Shown one piece after another: positions 9,632 through 17,461 of a DNA stretch of 31,923 nt. Position 1 is the stretch's first letter; every line of letters begins with the position of its first letter. The notes beneath the pieces were generated by a model that was not told the origin of the DNA, did not search any database, and saw only the letters and a program-made list of their open reading frames with translations. The translations under genes and the position numbers were made by a program. The stretch is from a virus: positions 1-31,923 of the IMG/VR virus record IMGVR_UViG_3300001851_000051; one strand, given 5' to 3'.

Positions 9632-11021
9632 AACTATTATTCTAGGTAAACTATTTACCGATGAAGACTACATGCGCAAGGTTATTCCTTTTATCAAGGA
9701 GGAATATATTCAAGATGTAGTTGATAAAACTATTTTCCAACAAATTAAAACGTTTATTTCTAAATACAATGCCCTTCCAACATTAGATGCCATAAGTATT
9801 GCTCTTGATAAAGATAAAACAGTAAATGAAAAACTGTATGCGTCTGCTGTACAACGTCTACAAGAGTTCAAGGAACCTATCGAAGTAAATTTGGCCTGGG
9901 TTCTTGAAGAGACTGAGAAATTTTGTAAAGATCAAGCGGTTTATAATGCTATCATGAAGTCTATTCAGATCATTGATGGCTCAGAGAAGACGCTTTCGAA
10001 AGATGGCATTCCCAGTATTCTATCTGAAGCCCTAGCCGTGGCTTTCGACAACAACGTGGGTCACGATTATATCGAAAATGCCACAGATCGTTATGAATTC
10101 TATCATCAAGTAGAAGAGAAGATTCCCTTTGATCTTGAGATGTTCAATAAGATGACTAATGGTGGTTTGCCAAATAAGACTTTGAATATTGTTCTTGCTG
10201 GTACGGGCGTAGGTAAGTCTTTGTTCATGTGTCATGTTGCCGCGTCAGTCTTATCACAAGGTAAGAATGTGTTGTACATCACGTTGGAAATGGCAGAAGA
10301 ACGTATCGCTGAACGTATCGATGCCAATCTGATGAATATCAACATTCAAGAACTAAAAGATTTGCCTAAGTCGATGTTTGATGATAGACTTGCTAAGATT
10401 AAGAACAAGACTGAGGGTAGATTAATCATCAAAGAATATCCTACAGCCGGTGCGCATGTCGGACATTTCAAGGCTTTGTTAAATGAACTTGCGCTAAAGA
10501 GAAATTTTTCACCCGATATCATCTTTGTTGACTATCTGAATATTAGCGCATCAAGTCGTATTAGACAGGGTGGATCGGTAAACTCATACACATATATCAA
10601 GAGTATTGCCGAAGAACTTCGCGGTCTTGCAGTAGAATTTAATGTTCCAATTGTTTCCGCTACACAAACCACACGTAGTGGATACGCAAACTCTGATATT
10701 GAACTTACTGATACATCCGAGTCTTTTGGTTTGCCTGCAACAGCCGATCTAATGTTTGCCATTATTTCTAATGAAGAGTTGGAAAAACTTGGTCAGTTGA
10801 TGGTAAAACAGTTGAAGAATAGATACAATGATCCTTCGGTAAACAAGAGATTTATGATTGGAGTTGATCGAGGTAAGATGAAGTTGTATGATGTGGAAGA
10901 TTCACAACAGGTTGGCATTACGGATTCTGGACAAGAAGAACTGACAACTCCAGTATTTGACAATACTAGAACAGGCGTAACAATGTTCGGTGTTAGAAAA
11001 CGACAGGAATTAAACTTCTGA
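9615..11021 (+). CDS. 41: Replicative DNA helicase gp41 (DnaB-like)
   Basis: Hexameric 5'-3' helicase of the T4 primosome. The N-terminal helical domain (1-~130) is followed by a RecA-like core with Walker A AGTGVGKS (about 195-202), VLYITLEMAEERIAERIDAN, the Walker B region FSPDIIFVDYLNI, the SYTYIKSIAEELRGLAVE block and QLKNRYNDP. These match T4 gp41 segment by segment (T4: VLYISMEMAEE, IIIVDYLGI, AIAEELRALAVE). Length 468 aa, T4 475. The start is a TTG at 9615 with GAGG six bases upstream; no ATG or GTG in this frame gives the conserved N-terminus. The stop overlaps the next ATG (TGATG). Confidence 0.95.
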   Translation: MQKKIETIILGKLFTDEDYMRKVIPFIKEEYIQDVVDKTIFQQIKTFISKYNALPTLDAISIALDKDKTVNEKLYASAVQRLQEFKEPIEVNLAWVLEETEKFCKDQAVYNAIMKSIQIIDGSEKTLSKDGIPSILSEALAVAFDNNVGHDYIENATDRYEFYHQVEEKIPFDLEMFNKMTNGGLPNKTLNIVLAGTGVGKSLFMCHVAASVLSQGKNVLYITLEMAEERIAERIDANLMNINIQELKDLPKSMFDDRLAKIKNKTEGRLIIKEYPTAGAHVGHFKALLNELALKRNFSPDIIFVDYLNISASSRIRQGGSVNSYTYIKSIAEELRGLAVEFNVPIVSATQTTRSGYANSDIELTDTSESFGLPATADLMFAIISNEELEKLGQLMVKQLKNRYNDPSVNKRFMIGVDRGKMKLYDVEDSQQVGITDSGQEELTTPVFDNTRTGVTMFGVRKRQELNF

Positions 11022-11596
11022 TGGACTTCATAGGCAAATATCCCAACGTACTATCTAAAGAGATGTGTGCGAAAACTTGTGAGGTAGCAGATCAAATTCT
11101 TTCTAGAGAAGACCCCGGAAATGGAGTTAGATTTTCTAATGACAGTAGTAGGGTAGATCATAACATCTTTAGTGGAAAGTATGGTAGTTTAATTCCATAC
11201 GAAGATGCCATCATTGAAGCCGTTCGATCCTGCTGGCAAGAATATAATCTAGAATATGATGTCACTACAAATCATTTTTCTATTTTGTTTGATAAAGGAT
11301 GGAAAATACAAAAATCTGAAACCGGTGGTGGATTCTATTCTTGGCATTATGAACAGGGACCAGGCAAATCTAAAAATAGATTTGCAGTTTGGATGATGTA
11401 TCTAAATACCGTTGAAGATGGTGGTAAAACCCAGTTTTTACATCAACAACTGGATGTCAAACCTGAAGCTGGCACAGTTTTAATTTGGCCCGCTGGATAC
11501 ACACATATACATAGAGCAGCACCAGATTTGGTAGGGAAAAAATATATTGCAACAGGCTGGTTTAACTTTCCAGATAGAGACAGAAAAACCTCTTGA
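11021..11596 (+). CDS. 2OG-Fe(II) oxygenase (prolyl 4-hydroxylase-like)
   Basis: A 191-residue double-stranded beta-helix dioxygenase. Iron ligands appear as His109 and Glu111 in SWHYEQG plus a distal histidine in THIHRAA (162 or 164). Lys173/174 in GKKYIATGWF is placed to bind 2-oxoglutarate. FAVWMMYLNTVEDGGKTQF and KPEAGTVLIWPAGYTH are the strand patterns of P4H-type oxygenases. An HxE rather than HxD pair is a tolerated variant. Such genes are common in T4-like phages, with unproven substrates; hydroxylation of a protein side chain is the family's usual reaction. The gene is coupled to gp41 (TGATG) but uses more AGA arginine codons than the replisome genes. Its stop lies within the next promoter's -35 box. 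Confidence 0.8.
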   Translation: MDFIGKYPNVLSKEMCAKTCEVADQILSREDPGNGVRFSNDSSRVDHNIFSGKYGSLIPYEDAIIEAVRSCWQEYNLEYDVTTNHFSILFDKGWKIQKSETGGGFYSWHYEQGPGKSKNRFAVWMMYLNTVEDGGKTQFLHQQLDVKPEAGTVLIWPAGYTHIHRAAPDLVGKKYIATGWFNFPDRDRKTS

Positions 11597-11630: not shown

Positions 11631-11707
11631 GCGCCCGTAACTCAGCTGGATAGAGTACATGCCTTCTAAGCATGATGTCACAGGTTCGAATCCTGTCGGG
11701 CGCGCCA
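11631..11707 (+). tRNA. tRNA-Arg (anticodon UCU)
   Basis: A complete cloverleaf. The acceptor stem GCGCCCG (11631-11637) pairs with CGGGCGC (11697-11703); discriminator G and encoded CCA end at 11707. The anticodon stem CATGC/GCATG flanks the loop CTTCTAA with anticodon TCT (11665-11667). The T arm is ACAGG-TTCGAAT-CCTGT. It reads AGA (and AGG), the arginine codon favoured by the late and accessory genes of this window and avoided by clamp, loader and ribonucleotide reductase genes, consistent with supplementing the host pool. Confidence 0.96.
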
Positions 11708-12240: not shown

Positions 12241-13383
12241 ATGCAAACCTTTTTATCATATCTAAATGAAGACGTAGCACACGAAGGCGGAATTGCTCAT
12301 ATTGAGCATCCATCCGACCGAACCTTTGACAGTAAAGAAGCCTCACACCACGCGCTTAAAATGCTGCGTGGTGTTTTGTCAGGTAATGCCAAGCTTACCA
12401 GAAAGATTGACGATAGAATGTCGTTTCACGCAATGCGAAATCCAGACGGATCGATTGCGGTAAAATATAAGGGTGCTGGAGCAAAATATAATTATAGTCA
12501 CGATGACATAGACAAACAGCACGGCGAAAAACCCTATCTTGCTGCGCCACTTCACGCACTTTTAGAACACCTAGGTAAAGTTCTCCCTAAAGAACCTGGA
12601 GAATATCAAGGTGGATTCATGTCTACCCCGCAGACCAGAGACGTTACACCAGCGGGAGAAATCACTCACACGCCAAACACCATAGAATATAGAGCAGCTA
12701 AGAAAAGTCCAGAGGGACAAAAGCTGATGAAGTCTAAAGTGAGCGCGGTAATTCATTCTAGGTTAGTCGGCCCAAATAGAAAAGCGGAACCGATTACAGA
12801 TACCTCAGATTTCCATTCTCATCCGGATGTTCATCTGGTTCAGCATACAGTTGAACCGGAACATATGCTCATGTCTCCTAAAGAAAAACAGCAAGCAAAA
12901 ATGCATTTAGATGCAGCAGATGAGTTGATGCACAATCATTCTTGGGAAGATTTAAATGGACATGAGAAACATTTGAGAACGTATATCAATAGAACTGTTG
13001 ATAGTGGAGATGTTCCAAATGTTTCCGATTATATCGAACATCTAAAGAATGTTCATCAAAAATTGATTGATAAAGTTAAAACTCAAAAAGCTAAAGACGC
13101 GAAAACTTTAACTATGGAAGCAGATATTGGCCATGTTCTAAACAACAGAAAATCTTTCGCTAAGGCATTTGATATTCATAACCATGTGCAACAAGCAACA
13201 AATATCATGGCAAGAAATTTAGATAGACATGGTGCAGGTGGCTTTACAACTCATATTGGTGGCAAGGCTTCTGGCGGTGAAGGTTACGTCTCTGAAGGAC
13301 TAAAAATTGTTGATAGGCAAGGCTTCTCTAAGGCAAATAGAGAGAGAAGTGCTGTGCTTAAAGCCTCAAGGAATAAAAAATGA
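12241..13383 (+). CDS. DUF6267-family protein, nucleotidyltransferase/ligase-like
   Basis: A 380-residue protein resembling, from memory, the DUF6267 proteins of T4-like phages. Shared features are a short N-terminal amphipathic MQTFLSYLNE, a KIDDRMSF segment (55-62) where relatives have a ligase-like KxDGSP, then VKYKGAG, PGEYQGGFM (119-127), TPNTIEY (144-150) and VSAVIHSRLVG (167-177). The order resembles nucleotidyltransferase motifs I, III, IV and V of DNA/RNA ligases. Here motif I reads K-I-D-D instead of K-x-D-G and motif V has R in place of K, so catalysis is doubtful. The C-terminal half is helical and His/Lys-rich. It is coupled by ATGA to an adenylyltransferase-like gene, a recurring pairing. 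The late promoter lies 27 bases upstream. Confidence 0.62.
   Translation: MQTFLSYLNEDVAHEGGIAHIEHPSDRTFDSKEASHHALKMLRGVLSGNAKLTRKIDDRMSFHAMRNPDGSIAVKYKGAGAKYNYSHDDIDKQHGEKPYLAAPLHALLEHLGKVLPKEPGEYQGGFMSTPQTRDVTPAGEITHTPNTIEYRAAKKSPEGQKLMKSKVSAVIHSRLVGPNRKAEPITDTSDFHSHPDVHLVQHTVEPEHMLMSPKEKQQAKMHLDAADELMHNHSWEDLNGHEKHLRTYINRTVDSGDVPNVSDYIEHLKNVHQKLIDKVKTQKAKDAKTLTMEADIGHVLNNRKSFAKAFDIHNHVQQATNIMARNLDRHGAGGFTTHIGGKASGGEGYVSEGLKIVDRQGFSKANRERSAVLKASRNKK
12345..12377 (+). terminator. Terminator-like hairpin inside the DUF6267 gene
   Basis: A perfect nine-base inverted repeat, ACACCACGC (12345-12353) and GCGTGGTGT (12366-12374), with GC-rich arms and possible two-base inner extension, is followed by TTTT (12374-12377). 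It sits ~105 bases into the gene. It may be a leaky terminator/attenuator after the late promoter, or just coding sequence. Confidence 0.35.
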
Positions 13384-13994
13384 TTCATCATATTACACAA
13401 GGAAGAATGAATCCTGTTCATGCAGGACATGAGCTTGTCGTTAATCAAGTTAGAAATGCGGCAAATAAAAATGGGCATACTATTATTTTAACTGGCTCCC
13501 ATGATCCAAAAAAGAATCCACTAACACCAGAACAAAAATTAAAACACGCTAAACGTGCCTTTCCTGGTGCAAATATCATAACAGCATCAAAAGAACATCC
13601 AACACTTTTACACCAACTTTCCAGATTGCATAGCAACGGAGTTACTGAACTGCATATGCATGTTGGTTCAGATAGAGTCGGTGAATTTAAAGAACTACTT
13701 AACAAATATAACGGTGTAGAAGGTAGACACGGATATTATAAATTCAATAAGATTAAAATTCATACCGTAGGTGAAGAGCGTAGTGATGAGAAACATGGCG
13801 CTGCTGGCGCATCGGCATCAAAAATGCGAGCCGCAGCGGCCGCTGGTGATAGAGAAGCATTTCATTCCATGTCACCAAGTGGTATGTCCGTAGAACACCG
13901 AGATGAGATGTATAATGACGTTAGACGAGGAATGGGAATTAGAGAGTCACTAGAGACTTTCAAAAATTTCATCGGGAGAATGTTGCATGTTTAA
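13380..13994 (+). CDS. NMN-adenylyltransferase/cytidylyltransferase-like nucleotidyltransferase
   Basis: A 204-residue Rossmann-like nucleotidyltransferase. The HxGH motif is HAGH (14-17) within GRMNPVHAGHE; QSxDPKKNPL-type text (SHDPKKNPLTPEQKL), the VGSDRVGEF block (96-103) and the C-terminal SASKMR (145-150, the SxSxxR signature) all match. Family enzymes transfer AMP or CMP to a phosphorylated substrate such as NMN. The exact phage substrate is unknown, and NAD+ salvage is one option. This protein type repeatedly accompanies DUF6267 in T4-like phages, as here by ATGA overlap. A C-terminal extension (ESLETFKNFIGRML) resembles the short SF-x-x-F motifs seen in neighbouring late proteins. 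It overlaps the next gene by eight bases. Confidence 0.82.
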   Translation: MIHHITQGRMNPVHAGHELVVNQVRNAANKNGHTIILTGSHDPKKNPLTPEQKLKHAKRAFPGANIITASKEHPTLLHQLSRLHSNGVTELHMHVGSDRVGEFKELLNKYNGVEGRHGYYKFNKIKIHTVGEERSDEKHGAAGASASKMRAAAAAGDREAFHSMSPSGMSVEHRDEMYNDVRRGMGIRESLETFKNFIGRMLHV

Positions 13995-14949: not shown

Positions 14950-14957
14950 TATAAATA
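14950..14957 (+). promoter_or_regulatory. T4-type late promoter
   Basis: An exact TATAAATA lies between the Rz1-like gene and the 675-residue multi-module gene, 25 bases before the ATG, with GGAG at 14971-14974. No -35-like box is visible. Predicted start is about 14963. Confidence 0.72.
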
Positions 14958-14981: not shown

Positions 14982-17009
14982 ATGAAAAATGATCCATGTT
15001 GGAAAGGCTACGAAATGGTAGGCACAAAAAAGAAAAACGGAAAAACCGTACCTAATTGTGTGCCTGTAAAAGAAATGGCTGCAAGTATTCTTGAGCGTGC
15101 CATAAAGAGGAAGCAGGTTTGCGATACTTCCGAGTCAACGGATTATTATCCAAGACCTGGATTTCCAAAAGAGGGTGAATATGGTTATAGCGAAAATCCT
15201 GGTCTAAAGCCTCAAGAAAGTGATAAAGACCAGGACATGGATAAAGCGTATAAGATTGCCAATGAAAAAGAAGGTAAGAAACCCCTAAACGTTAAACCTA
15301 TAGAGGTTTCTAATAAGCTAGAAGAAAAGCGCGGCTCAGAATATACGTTGTATCACAAGTCATATACTGATGCAGTAAATCATGCGCTATCGCACCATGA
15401 AAAGTCTGGATTAAAAGTATCAGATGATGACAGATTTCATCATGTAGGGTTAATGTCAAAGAAGCCAAGTGAAGGCAATACAACCTCTCTACATCTTCCT
15501 GCTACGCATACCAGTGGCAAGAAGCATATGATTCATGTTCAAGTTTTTAACAAAGGTGGCACACATCCTTACGAACTAAACACTTACTCAAGTGGTATGG
15601 GTAAACACGTTAAGGAAGAAGTAGAAGATATTATGGAACGTGGTGAAGACGATAAGGGTTATTATCGCTCGACAGAATCTGGTGCTGGTCTAACTCGCAA
15701 GGGTGCAAAGCACTTCGGTATTAAGACTGCCGTCACAACGCCACCCAGCAAGTTAGATCCAAATGGTAAAGCCGCAAAGCGCCGCAAGTCATTCTGCGCC
15801 CGTATGGGTGGCATGAAAGGTCCAATGAAGGACGAAAAGGGACGTCCAACTCGCAAAGCTATGTCTCTGCGCCGTTGGAATTGTCACGAAGAGTTGGGTA
15901 AAGACAACGAATGGGGTCGTCCAGAACTTCGTAAGAAGTTTGCTGCTGTGACACCAGGACAAGAAAGTTTAACTGCGGATAAAATTCCAGTGATGGATCC
16001 GCATACAGGTTTTGCTCCCAGTGCTGATAAGAAGTTAAATGAAATATCAGCCAAGGGCGCGAAAATGAGGTCTGATTTTGCTGCTAAACTACAAAAAAGG
16101 CTTGCGGACTATAATGCTTCGGCTAAGAAAACAAAGCAAGATATTCAAAAACATCAGGCAGCCTCAGATTCTCCCTCAGAGCATTTAGTTATGCAACTGA
16201 GAAAAGCATCGTCTATCGGATCTAAAGTAAAATTTAGAGATGGTAGCGAACATCATGTAGCACCAAATCATGTAGAAAAATTCAACGATAGATATCATTC
16301 GTTAAAATCTTCGATTGAAAAAGAAAGTTATGTGAAACGTGCGCACAAGTCACACGCAGATTTTATGCATGCCATATCTGAAGGCGTTTACATGATGCCT
16401 ATGGTGTCTGGAGGTATTGCAGCTCCATGCACCTCAAGCGTTTCTAGTGCAAACTATCCTACTCCAGATCAAGTATCTCCAGCTCCAGAGTTTGGCGATA
16501 TGAATAATGACGGTAAAGAAAATGAGTGGGATGATGCCGCAATTGAGGCAGATGTTACAAAAGAAATTGAAAACTCAAATTGGAAAGATTTGATTCAATA
16601 TTATGATGATGAAGACCTTGAAGATGAGGAAGACTCTGAAGATGAAAATGAAGTCGAAAAGGAAGATGACATTTCAGAGGGTCTGACCCCACAAGGTAGA
16701 TTGAAAAAGAAGTTTGCAGCCATTCGCACAAAAGGTAGACGCAATCTTGCCAAGAAACTACAACTTCAAAGAGTTGCGACACCAGACAGAATTAAAAAGC
16801 GTTCTATTCGCGCTGCAAGAAACATGGTTTATAAAAGAATTCTTAGAAATAGAGATAGATCAACGCTATCTGCCGGAGAGAAAGCTAGAATTGAAGCCAT
16901 GGTAAAACGTATGGCTCCAACTGTAGGAAGATTGTCTATCAGATTGCAACAAAAAGAAAGACAAATTGATAGAAACAGAATTCAGAATCGTGGCAAAAAG
17001 AAAAAGTGA
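14982..17009 (+). CDS. Multi-module late protein (DUF6321-like region), probable virion or head-core protein
   Basis: A 675-residue patchwork. Modules: an N-terminal C-W-K-G-Y ... NCVP cysteine cassette (1-30); a His-rich region around 120-210 ending in HPYELNTYSSG; a very basic block with SKLDPNGKAAKRRKSFCAR and a closing RRWNC (about 255-300) that recalls DUF6321-type phage sequences; a helical lysine-rich stretch; an extremely acidic linker (EDLEDEEDSEDENEVEKEDD, about 545-565); and an arginine-rich C-terminus (TPDRIKKRSIRAARNMVY onward). Such cassettes recur in different combinations in T4-like phages near head-core genes. A role as internal head, scaffold or DNA-associated protein is inference. 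It has its own late promoter, and the C-terminal third uses AGA heavily. Confidence 0.55.
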   Translation: MKNDPCWKGYEMVGTKKKNGKTVPNCVPVKEMAASILERAIKRKQVCDTSESTDYYPRPGFPKEGEYGYSENPGLKPQESDKDQDMDKAYKIANEKEGKKPLNVKPIEVSNKLEEKRGSEYTLYHKSYTDAVNHALSHHEKSGLKVSDDDRFHHVGLMSKKPSEGNTTSLHLPATHTSGKKHMIHVQVFNKGGTHPYELNTYSSGMGKHVKEEVEDIMERGEDDKGYYRSTESGAGLTRKGAKHFGIKTAVTTPPSKLDPNGKAAKRRKSFCARMGGMKGPMKDEKGRPTRKAMSLRRWNCHEELGKDNEWGRPELRKKFAAVTPGQESLTADKIPVMDPHTGFAPSADKKLNEISAKGAKMRSDFAAKLQKRLADYNASAKKTKQDIQKHQAASDSPSEHLVMQLRKASSIGSKVKFRDGSEHHVAPNHVEKFNDRYHSLKSSIEKESYVKRAHKSHADFMHAISEGVYMMPMVSGGIAAPCTSSVSSANYPTPDQVSPAPEFGDMNNDGKENEWDDAAIEADVTKEIENSNWKDLIQYYDDEDLEDEEDSEDENEVEKEDDISEGLTPQGRLKKKFAAIRTKGRRNLAKKLQLQRVATPDRIKKRSIRAARNMVYKRILRNRDRSTLSAGEKARIEAMVKRMAPTVGRLSIRLQQKERQIDRNRIQNRGKKKK

Positions 17010-17011
17010 AC

Positions 17012-17461
17012 ATGGAAGAATTACAAGTAGCATTAAAAATTGTCTTAGCTAATACATATGCCATGTATTTTAAGGCGCATGGCTTTCATTGGAATTTAGA
17101 AGGAAATGTTTTTCCTGAATACCACACTTTCTTTGAGAATATCTATACAGAAGTGTATGGTGCAGTTGATGACATTGCCGAAAGAATTCGTGTCTTAGAA
17201 ACTTATGCTCCGGCAAATATGGCAACTTTAAGCCAGATGTCAACTATTACTGAGGGTGATATCTGCGGAACTCTTGTTAAAGACATGCTTGAAAATTTGC
17301 AGAAGGCAAATGAGTCTGTTATTGAATCTTTAAATGCTGCGCACAAATTAGCAGAAGATGCAAAACAATTTGGCATAGTTAATAAACTTGAAGAGAGATT
17401 AGACATGCACAATAAACATGCATGGATGATTAGATCGACATTAAAAGGTACAAGTCTATGA
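17012..17461 (+). CDS. Dps-like ferritin-family protein
   Basis: A 149-residue four-helix ferritin-like protein. The Dps ferroxidase residues have counterparts: His26 in AHGFHWN, His38 and Glu42 in YHTFFE, Asp53 and Glu57 in DDIAER, followed by RIRVLETYAP and a C-terminal HNKHAWMIRSTL. Dps proteins form 12-mers that oxidise and store iron and can protect DNA. In a phage the role is open: protection of replicating DNA, or a virion part. The ATG at 17012 is chosen; a GTG at 17006 overlapping the previous stop is possible and would add two residues. The Shine-Dalgarno is poor, suggesting coupled translation. It overlaps the next gene by ATGA. Confidence 0.8.
   Translation: MEELQVALKIVLANTYAMYFKAHGFHWNLEGNVFPEYHTFFENIYTEVYGAVDDIAERIRVLETYAPANMATLSQMSTITEGDICGTLVKDMLENLQKANESVIESLNAAHKLAEDAKQFGIVNKLEERLDMHNKHAWMIRSTLKGTSL

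Follow-up and report, generated by a model that had tools for sequence, protein, structure and literature searches.

A Ligase-like Protein and an Adenylyltransferase-type Partner as Candidate Head Cargo of T4-like Phages

Results and Discussion

The window, by which we mean the whole stretch of DNA analyzed, is a 31,923-base virus fragment from IMG/VR. It carries a DUF6267 gene, here called A, and an HxGH nucleotidyltransferase gene, here called B (Table 1). The stop codon of A and the start codon of B share an ATGA overlap on the plus strand, which bears out the tandem translation proposed in an earlier sequence-only reading of this DNA. A matched PF19782 (DUF6267) with an E value of 1.5e-43 and 150.1 bits against a curated cut-off of 27, and B matched PF01467 (CTP_transf_like) with 24.7 bits against a cut-off of 21. 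B was also matched by phrog_3041/395, labeled "cytidyltransferase". Another family, phrog_455, covers both an A half and a B half, with A as its N-terminal half, and thus already points to a fusion. By eye, the genes upstream of A resemble a T4-like replication block. Two genes upstream of A lies a tRNA-Arg (TCT) gene (11631-11707, +), adjoined by a 2OG-Fe(II) oxygenase gene (11021-11596). Downstream of the pair, a 151-aa protein (17006-17461, +) has a Dps/ferritin-type appearance by eye, and relatives have one too.

Table 1. Features of the A-B locus, and genes of related loci referred to in the text
Feature	Position	Strand	Basis
T4-type late promoter TATAAATA, 35 nt before A start codon	12206..12213	+	Motif match
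A: DUF6267 protein, 380 aa, ligase-type nucleotidyltransferase fold	12241..13383	+	ORF, family match, predicted structure
Capsid-targeting-type leader MQTFLSYLNE of A; predicted cut after Glu10	12241..12270	+	Pattern match; residues 1-17 pLDDT <50
Motif I of A, K55-I-D-D-R-M-S-F62 (wider family K-x-D-G)	12403..12426	+	Alignment
Motif III of A, Q123-G-G125 (wider family Q-G-D)	12607..12615	+	Alignment
Helical insert of A, residues ~206-330, motif III side to motif IV	12856..13230	+	Model secondary structure
Motif IV of A, E347-G-Y-V350	13279..13290	+	E347, G348, V350 invariant in 97 sequences
Motif V region of A, K355-I-V-D-R359	13303..13317	+	K355, R359 invariant in 97 sequences
B: HxGH nucleotidyltransferase, 204 aa	13380..13994	+	ORF, family match, predicted structure, motifs
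HAGH motif of B, residues 14-17	13419..13430	+	G16, H17 invariant
SASKMR motif of B, residues 145-150	13812..13829	+	S145, R150 invariant
C-terminal tag of B: I-R-E189 (protease-type cut motif), then SLETFKNFIGRMLHV	13938..13991	+	Pattern conservation
Prohead protease genes of relatives (examples; others exist)	L261 2815-3471; L285 3017-3661; L290 16704-17441; L252 2706-3356; L256 46657-47298		
Leader-bearing HAD genes of relatives	L261 15571-16176; L267 4434-5045; L274 1253-1858; L280 17943-18542		

The sequence-only reading had suggested a two-protein system and had named co-occurrence across phages as a check, and the survey of related loci agrees with it. B directly followed A in 79 of 81 close loci (the window is L081, and L001 is 99.7% identical to it in A), and the contigs of the remaining two end 1 and 7 nt past A. 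Across all 246 loci, B was adjacent in 165, fused to A in 1, and elsewhere in the locus in 40; the loci lacking B comprised 15 with less than 700 nt of room and 25 without it despite room. All 10 long contigs carried both A and B, and in S-PM2 the two domains lie on one protein, a natural fusion. In a named phage collection, A was found in 467 records (cyanophage query, E up to 0.001) and B in 494 records (window query, E up to 0.1), with overlapping hosts. B also occurs beyond the named groups of A, in some Pseudomonas, Klebsiella, Erwinia, Escherichia, and Salmonella phages. Long forms of B have zeta-toxin-like, DUF5824, or other modules attached.

The model of A had a mean pLDDT of 92.3, with values below 50 for residues 1-17 only. 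A had been read as a ligase-like nucleotidyltransferase, and the predicted fold is consistent with this assignment. All 50 VIA-align matches listed were DNA or RNA ligases, with no unrelated fold among them. The best match listed was the Naegleria RNA ligase, with 182 residues aligned at Z 8.2 and rmsd 4.1; a Z near 8 is moderate. REL1 (Z 6.9) and T4 Rnl1 (Z 6.7) scored lower, and human DNA ligases came close to the RNA ligases. Foldseek against the PDB gave weak matches, the best being a DNA ligase IV complex at E 0.039 and none reaching E 0.001. PDB sequence searches with A, as a single sequence or a profile, returned no ligase, so it is the predicted fold, together with the motifs, that ties A to ligases. 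Motifs I, III, IV, and V follow one another in the nucleotidyltransferase order that had been claimed. As modeled, A is a protein of nucleic-acid-ligase nucleotidyltransferase fold. A fold unrelated to nucleotidyltransferases was the refuting outcome named in the sequence-only reading, and it did not occur. After motif V, the model has just a helix, with no OB-fold or other known ligase C-terminal domain. This bare end and the insert before motif IV are not known from other ligases.

Alignment of A covered 97 nonredundant sequences (22 KxDD, 54 DLP6-like, and 21 cyanophage-type). Invariant columns include Lys55, Asp57, Lys77, Gln123, Gly124, Glu347, Gly348, Val350, Lys355, and Arg359, as well as H20, which lies before motif I. 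The wider family has K-[WF]-D-G at motif I in 75 of 75 sequences, and the KIDD of the window is unchanged in every close relative covering that site. Position 58 of motif I and position 125 of motif III differ together: Gly58/Asp125 was present in 75/75 wider-family sequences, and Asp58/Gly125 in 22/22 window-clade sequences. The sequence-only reading had noted K-I-D-D at motif I and Arg for Lys at motif V, and had set A as a degenerate enzyme beside a canonical partner. The letters were read correctly, but the degeneracy does not hold. KIDD is invariant in 22/22 sequences of the clade, on which ground we reject a degenerate enzyme, and R359 is a family trait rather than a sign of decay since it is invariant in 97/97. 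What had looked like a degenerate-canonical pair is one in which the motifs of A are strictly constrained and carry a clade-wide paired substitution. Judged from the alignment, the window form of A is a fixed alternative active site, in which the active-site acid has probably moved from motif III to motif I.

A tree built without columns 58 and 125 placed the swap as a single change with support of 100. The swap therefore counts once and is no repeated covariation, and a reading of the G58/D125 pairing as strong covariation was dropped. A could instead be a catalytically dead relative, kept as a binding or structural head protein. The window clade has lost the motif III acid and the motif I Gly, and the region after motif V has no OB-fold or other known ligase C-terminal domain, both of which would suit a dead protein. 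Yet Lys55, Asp57, Glu347, Lys355, and Arg359 are invariant in the 97 sequences, and decay would not preserve them, which makes a dead A improbable.

B had been described as an HxGH/SxSxxR enzyme, and both motifs are in place as HAGH and SASKMR. Twelve columns were invariant in 74 sequences of B, including R9, G16, H17, S145, and R150, and the model had a mean pLDDT of 90.3. The top Foldseek match was NaMN adenylyltransferase (E 2.7e-5); phosphopantetheine adenylyltransferase and NMNAT came next, and the tRNA acetate ligase TmcAL was also among the matches listed. VIA placed phosphopantetheine adenylyltransferase (Z 15.3) above NMNAT (Z 13.9). A PDB sequence search with B alone found nothing, and a search with its profile gave weak adenylyltransferase matches (best E 0.087). 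No cytidylyltransferase was among the 50 matches listed for B by either Foldseek or VIA, so the "cytidyltransferase" label has no special support. In its model, B is of adenylyltransferase-type fold.

These matches bear on an explanation in which A is an NAD-dependent ligase releasing NMN and B is an NMN adenylyltransferase remaking NAD. Such a cycle would explain why A and B are fused in S-PM2, and it accords with the similar fit of B to NMN/NaMN and phosphopantetheine adenylyltransferases and with the invariance of H20 before motif I in 97 sequences. However, an NAD-dependent ligase was not among the 50 VIA matches listed for A, phosphopantetheine adenylyltransferase came first for B by VIA, and no NMN-binding domain was recognized. 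An NAD cycle between the two proteins is highly improbable in our estimate.

The N-terminus of A resembles a capsid-targeting sequence. In T4 (PMC9026906), residues 4 and 7 of that sequence serve targeting, while residues 8 and 10 serve cutting at L/I-x-E. The leader of A fits these positions with F4, Y7, L8, and E10. The A frame offers no start codon before position 12241, and the next Met lies inside the fold. A tight leader pattern, M-x-x-[FY]-x-x-[FYI]-[IL]-x-E, was found on A in 48/81 close, 57/80 DLP6-like, and 0/80 cyanophage-type loci. Among the 97 nonredundant sequences, the leader was present in 22/22 KxDD, 54/54 DLP6-like, and 0/21 cyanophage-type proteins, the 76 positive rows comprising 49 tight matches, 8 loose matches, and 19 variants judged by eye. 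Across eight sets of called genes, 21 of 3661 start codons lying close to a gene start had the tight pattern, compared with 3 of 9768 internal start codons (Fisher p 1.1e-9). Across about 70 kb of T4 screened, it occurred in ipIII only; T4 IPI comes close to the pattern yet fails it.

B carries a related signal at its other end. A cut motif [LI]-x-E followed by F-x-x-F-[LIV] ends 28 of 28 unique complete short close relatives of B; in one same-clade example, B ends in GMGLHETLSFTQFVG and A starts with MLSFTQFITE. As background, 7 of 1429 genes fit this form, of which 4 are B itself and 1 is the S-CREM2 prohead protease. Without the cut motif, the loose C-terminal pattern was discarded as not significant (34 matches in the 1429 genes); what we count is the form that includes L/I-x-E, with its 28/28 conservation. 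The pattern suggests that the C-terminal tag of B is a head address. T4 gp21 has no such C-terminal tag, so the tag is no T4 rule. The prohead proteases of seven T4-like relatives (examples in Table 1) end in F/L-x-x-F/L-[LI], perhaps a shared core-binding end.

The motif TATAAATA upstream of A is that of the late promoter of T4 and KVP40 (PMC2984593). It occurred 6 times in the window versus 2.37 expected by shuffling. At -34 to -40, it was present in 29 of 45 distinct window-like upstream regions, with a chance expectation of about 0.013 to 0.02 per 80 nt. It was present in 0/47 cyanophage-type and 3/58 DLP6-like upstream regions, the latter at -42 to -47. In relatives, the same motif precedes the gene adjoining the prohead protease and the next gene, which we read as probably scaffold and major capsid. 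A-B looks late because of the motif spacing upstream of A and the same motif before these presumed head genes, which suggests that the A-B pair of the window clade forms a late unit like the head genes. As a counterpoint, the late promoter is seldom present before DLP6-like A, even though that A bears the leader. TATAAATA also occurs at 14950-14957, before a 675-aa DUF6321 protein (14982-17009, +) that starts with DPCWKGYEMVGTKKKNGKTVPNCVP. A Cys motif akin to that of the DUF6321 protein is found in S-SZBM1 ORF 139 and S-CREM2 gp160, both listed as virion proteins; from its sequence, the 675-aa protein may be a virion protein too.

B homologues have been listed in published virion mass spectrometry of S-SM1, S-SCSM1, S-CREM2, and S-SZBM1. 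The literature drawn on included PMC3037559, PMC9602691, PMC10665884, PMC9146016, and PMC9958956. In these four phages, respectively, B bears the leaders MKKFSAFLNE, MKSFLQFLKE, MKNFSSFLTE, and MRFRQFIIE; the last is one residue short, and the S-SZBM1 homologue was assigned by annotation and sequence. In two of them, A is leaderless and was not detected: S-CREM2 A (gp87) is absent from the 52 virion proteins listed for that phage, and S-SZBM1 A (ORF 141 by position, its numbering tied by the matching lengths of two neighbors) is absent from the published virion list, both in the available parts of the sources. No homologue of A was found among the called genes of S-SCSM1. No virion proteome of a phage with a leader-bearing A was found in the literature searched.

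S-CREM2 allows a wider view of the leader. Its leader genes are gp6 (SAM hydrolase), gp14 (kinase), and gp154 (B), and loosely gp13 and gp175; 4 of these 5 were detected in the virion versus 52 of 219 proteins overall (p 0.012). S-CREM2 gp175 and S-SCSM1 gp30 went undetected in those lists despite a loose leader. S-CREM2 gp12 (L255 7704-10313), a Cas9 reported in the virion, has a leader-like stretch, LRFASFMAEA, some 17 residues from its start and carries TFRDFLN at the other end, a sequence arrangement that suggests a protein doubly tagged for the head. Of 10 related long contigs, 9 have a gp21-type prohead protease (PF03420); the fragment that makes up the window lacks the gene.

The same proteomes can be read in a more ordinary way, with A and B as a cytoplasmic pair working late in infection, for example in RNA/DNA end joining or NAD supply, the leader as an amphipathic tail, and virion B as carry-over. 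Cyanophage A has no leader (0/80 loci) and is missing from the two virion lists in their available parts, and the S-SCSM1 and S-CREM2 papers state that carry-over of abundant proteins is possible, a warning that comes from the authors of both proteomes. An amphipathic tail would be hard to reconcile, though, with a leader that fits the mapped T4 rules (residues 4, 7, 8, and 10), that is nearly missing at internal start codons, and that predicts which nonstructural proteins the S-CREM2 virions show. A purely cytoplasmic pair appears rather unlikely to us.

Other leader-bearing proteins in relatives include HAD, P-loop, and ADP-ribosyltransferase proteins and several unknowns. The HAD protein matched phrog_415 "polynucleotide kinase" with an E value of 2e-13 (two scanned), and in 3 of the 4 relatives with such a gene (Table 1), it and A were the sole two tight-leader genes called. 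The P-loop protein matched AAA_33, zeta toxin, and phrog_505 "polynucleotide kinase". The ADP-ribosyltransferase (PF03496, E 1.8e-14) of L284 (14264-15049) has the leader MKSFKEFLFEE and is a possible counterpart of T4 Alt. In T4, Pnkp and Rnl1 heal and seal ends in tRNA repair. An RNA end-repair kit delivered from the head could work alike, with A sealing RNA ends healed by the HAD phosphatase and P-loop kinase. The "polynucleotide kinase" matches of leader-bearing HAD and P-loop proteins, the zeta-toxin-like match on long B forms, and the RNA ligases among the nearest folds of A all agree with this idea. Against it, human DNA ligases score nearly as high for A, these families span many substrates, the kinase and HAD genes are absent from the window, and B has no role in known RNA repair. 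We regard an RNA kit as possible but doubtful.

From the leaders and the virion B homologues, with leaderless A undetected in two phages, we infer packaging and ejection of A and, probably, of B too. We lean slightly towards A and B being a late-expressed enzyme pair, loaded into the head and ejected with the DNA. In this mechanism, the T4-type late promoter, recognized by its motif and spacing, would transcribe A and B together. The 10-residue leader of A would dock on the prohead core, much as T4 IPIII does through its capsid-targeting sequence, and B would follow by its related C-terminal tag or may also ride on A, as their sequences and the virion mass spectrometry of B homologues suggest. 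The gp21-type prohead protease, present in relatives, is predicted to cut at the motifs after Glu10 of A and Glu189 of B. After ejection, A would act as a ligase-family nucleotidyltransferase through Lys55, with the acid at Asp58, in line with its fold and constraint. B, given its fold, would make an adenylylated metabolite, by conjecture most plausibly of the NAD or CoA kind. The purpose, most likely and as the most tentative step, would be to mend, early on, nucleic-acid ends or nucleotide cofactors that host defense has damaged.

A broader and more speculative reading, which we would not expect to hold in full, is that T4-like phages of many hosts load a head enzyme kit by a simple address code, in which A and B would form the end-repair core, entering the cell along with the DNA and reversing damage done by the host ahead of all phage gene expression. 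The code itself, equally conjectural, would be either a leader at the N-terminus, M-x-x-F-x-x-F-[IL]-x-E, or a tag at the C-terminus, [LI]-x-E...F-x-x-F-[LI]. The kit might then comprise, just as tentatively, the ligase-like protein, adenylyltransferase, HAD phosphatase, P-loop kinase, ADP-ribosyltransferase, SAM hydrolase, and, in one phage, Cas9. If true, the sequence of a protein would be enough to predict whether it is cargo.

Conclusions

Herein, two unexplained core genes of marine T4-like phages are turned into a testable prediction, namely of enzymes that are injected and whose end tags and cut sites are defined, and a sequence rule is offered for the puzzling nonstructural proteins in cyanophage virions. 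An acid seemingly exchanged between two motifs of a ligase active site is a clear target for enzymology. The motif III change, leader, C-terminal tag, and late promoter were absent from the sequence-only reading; its view that the system is so far undescribed stands for A, as "DUF6267" was not found in the literature searched. Our searches covered DUF6267, capsid targeting sequence in cyanophage, and packaged RNA ligase or NMNAT. They found no description of A as head cargo in the available parts of that literature, most subscription journals lying outside its scope. The virion presence of B homologues is already published.

Several known systems resemble the pair in part. T4-GC_71, which corresponds to DUF6267 and the N-terminal half of phrog_455, likewise follows replication genes and precedes the "cytidyltransferase" T4-GC_190. 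The window clade has K-I-D-D and Q-G-G where other DUF6267 proteins have K-W-D-G and Q-G-D, and it has a leader and late promoter, neither of which is present in the cyanophage type. The RNA ligases of Naegleria, T4 (Rnl1/Rnl2), and trypanosomes (REL1) share with A the nucleotidyltransferase fold and the succession of motifs I, III, IV, and V; A differs in having about 125 helical residues inserted before motif IV, no domain after motif V, and Asp in place of the motif I Gly. The virion proteins annotated as NMNAT or cytidylyltransferase in S-SM1, S-SCSM1, S-CREM2, and S-SZBM1 are homologues of window B; they carry the leader at their own N-terminus, whereas in the window the N-terminus of B has none and the leader is on A. 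The leader pattern of A also matches T4 internal protein III, but here the predicted cargo, recognized from its sequence, would be a ligase-like enzyme whose partner B is tagged at the C-terminus.
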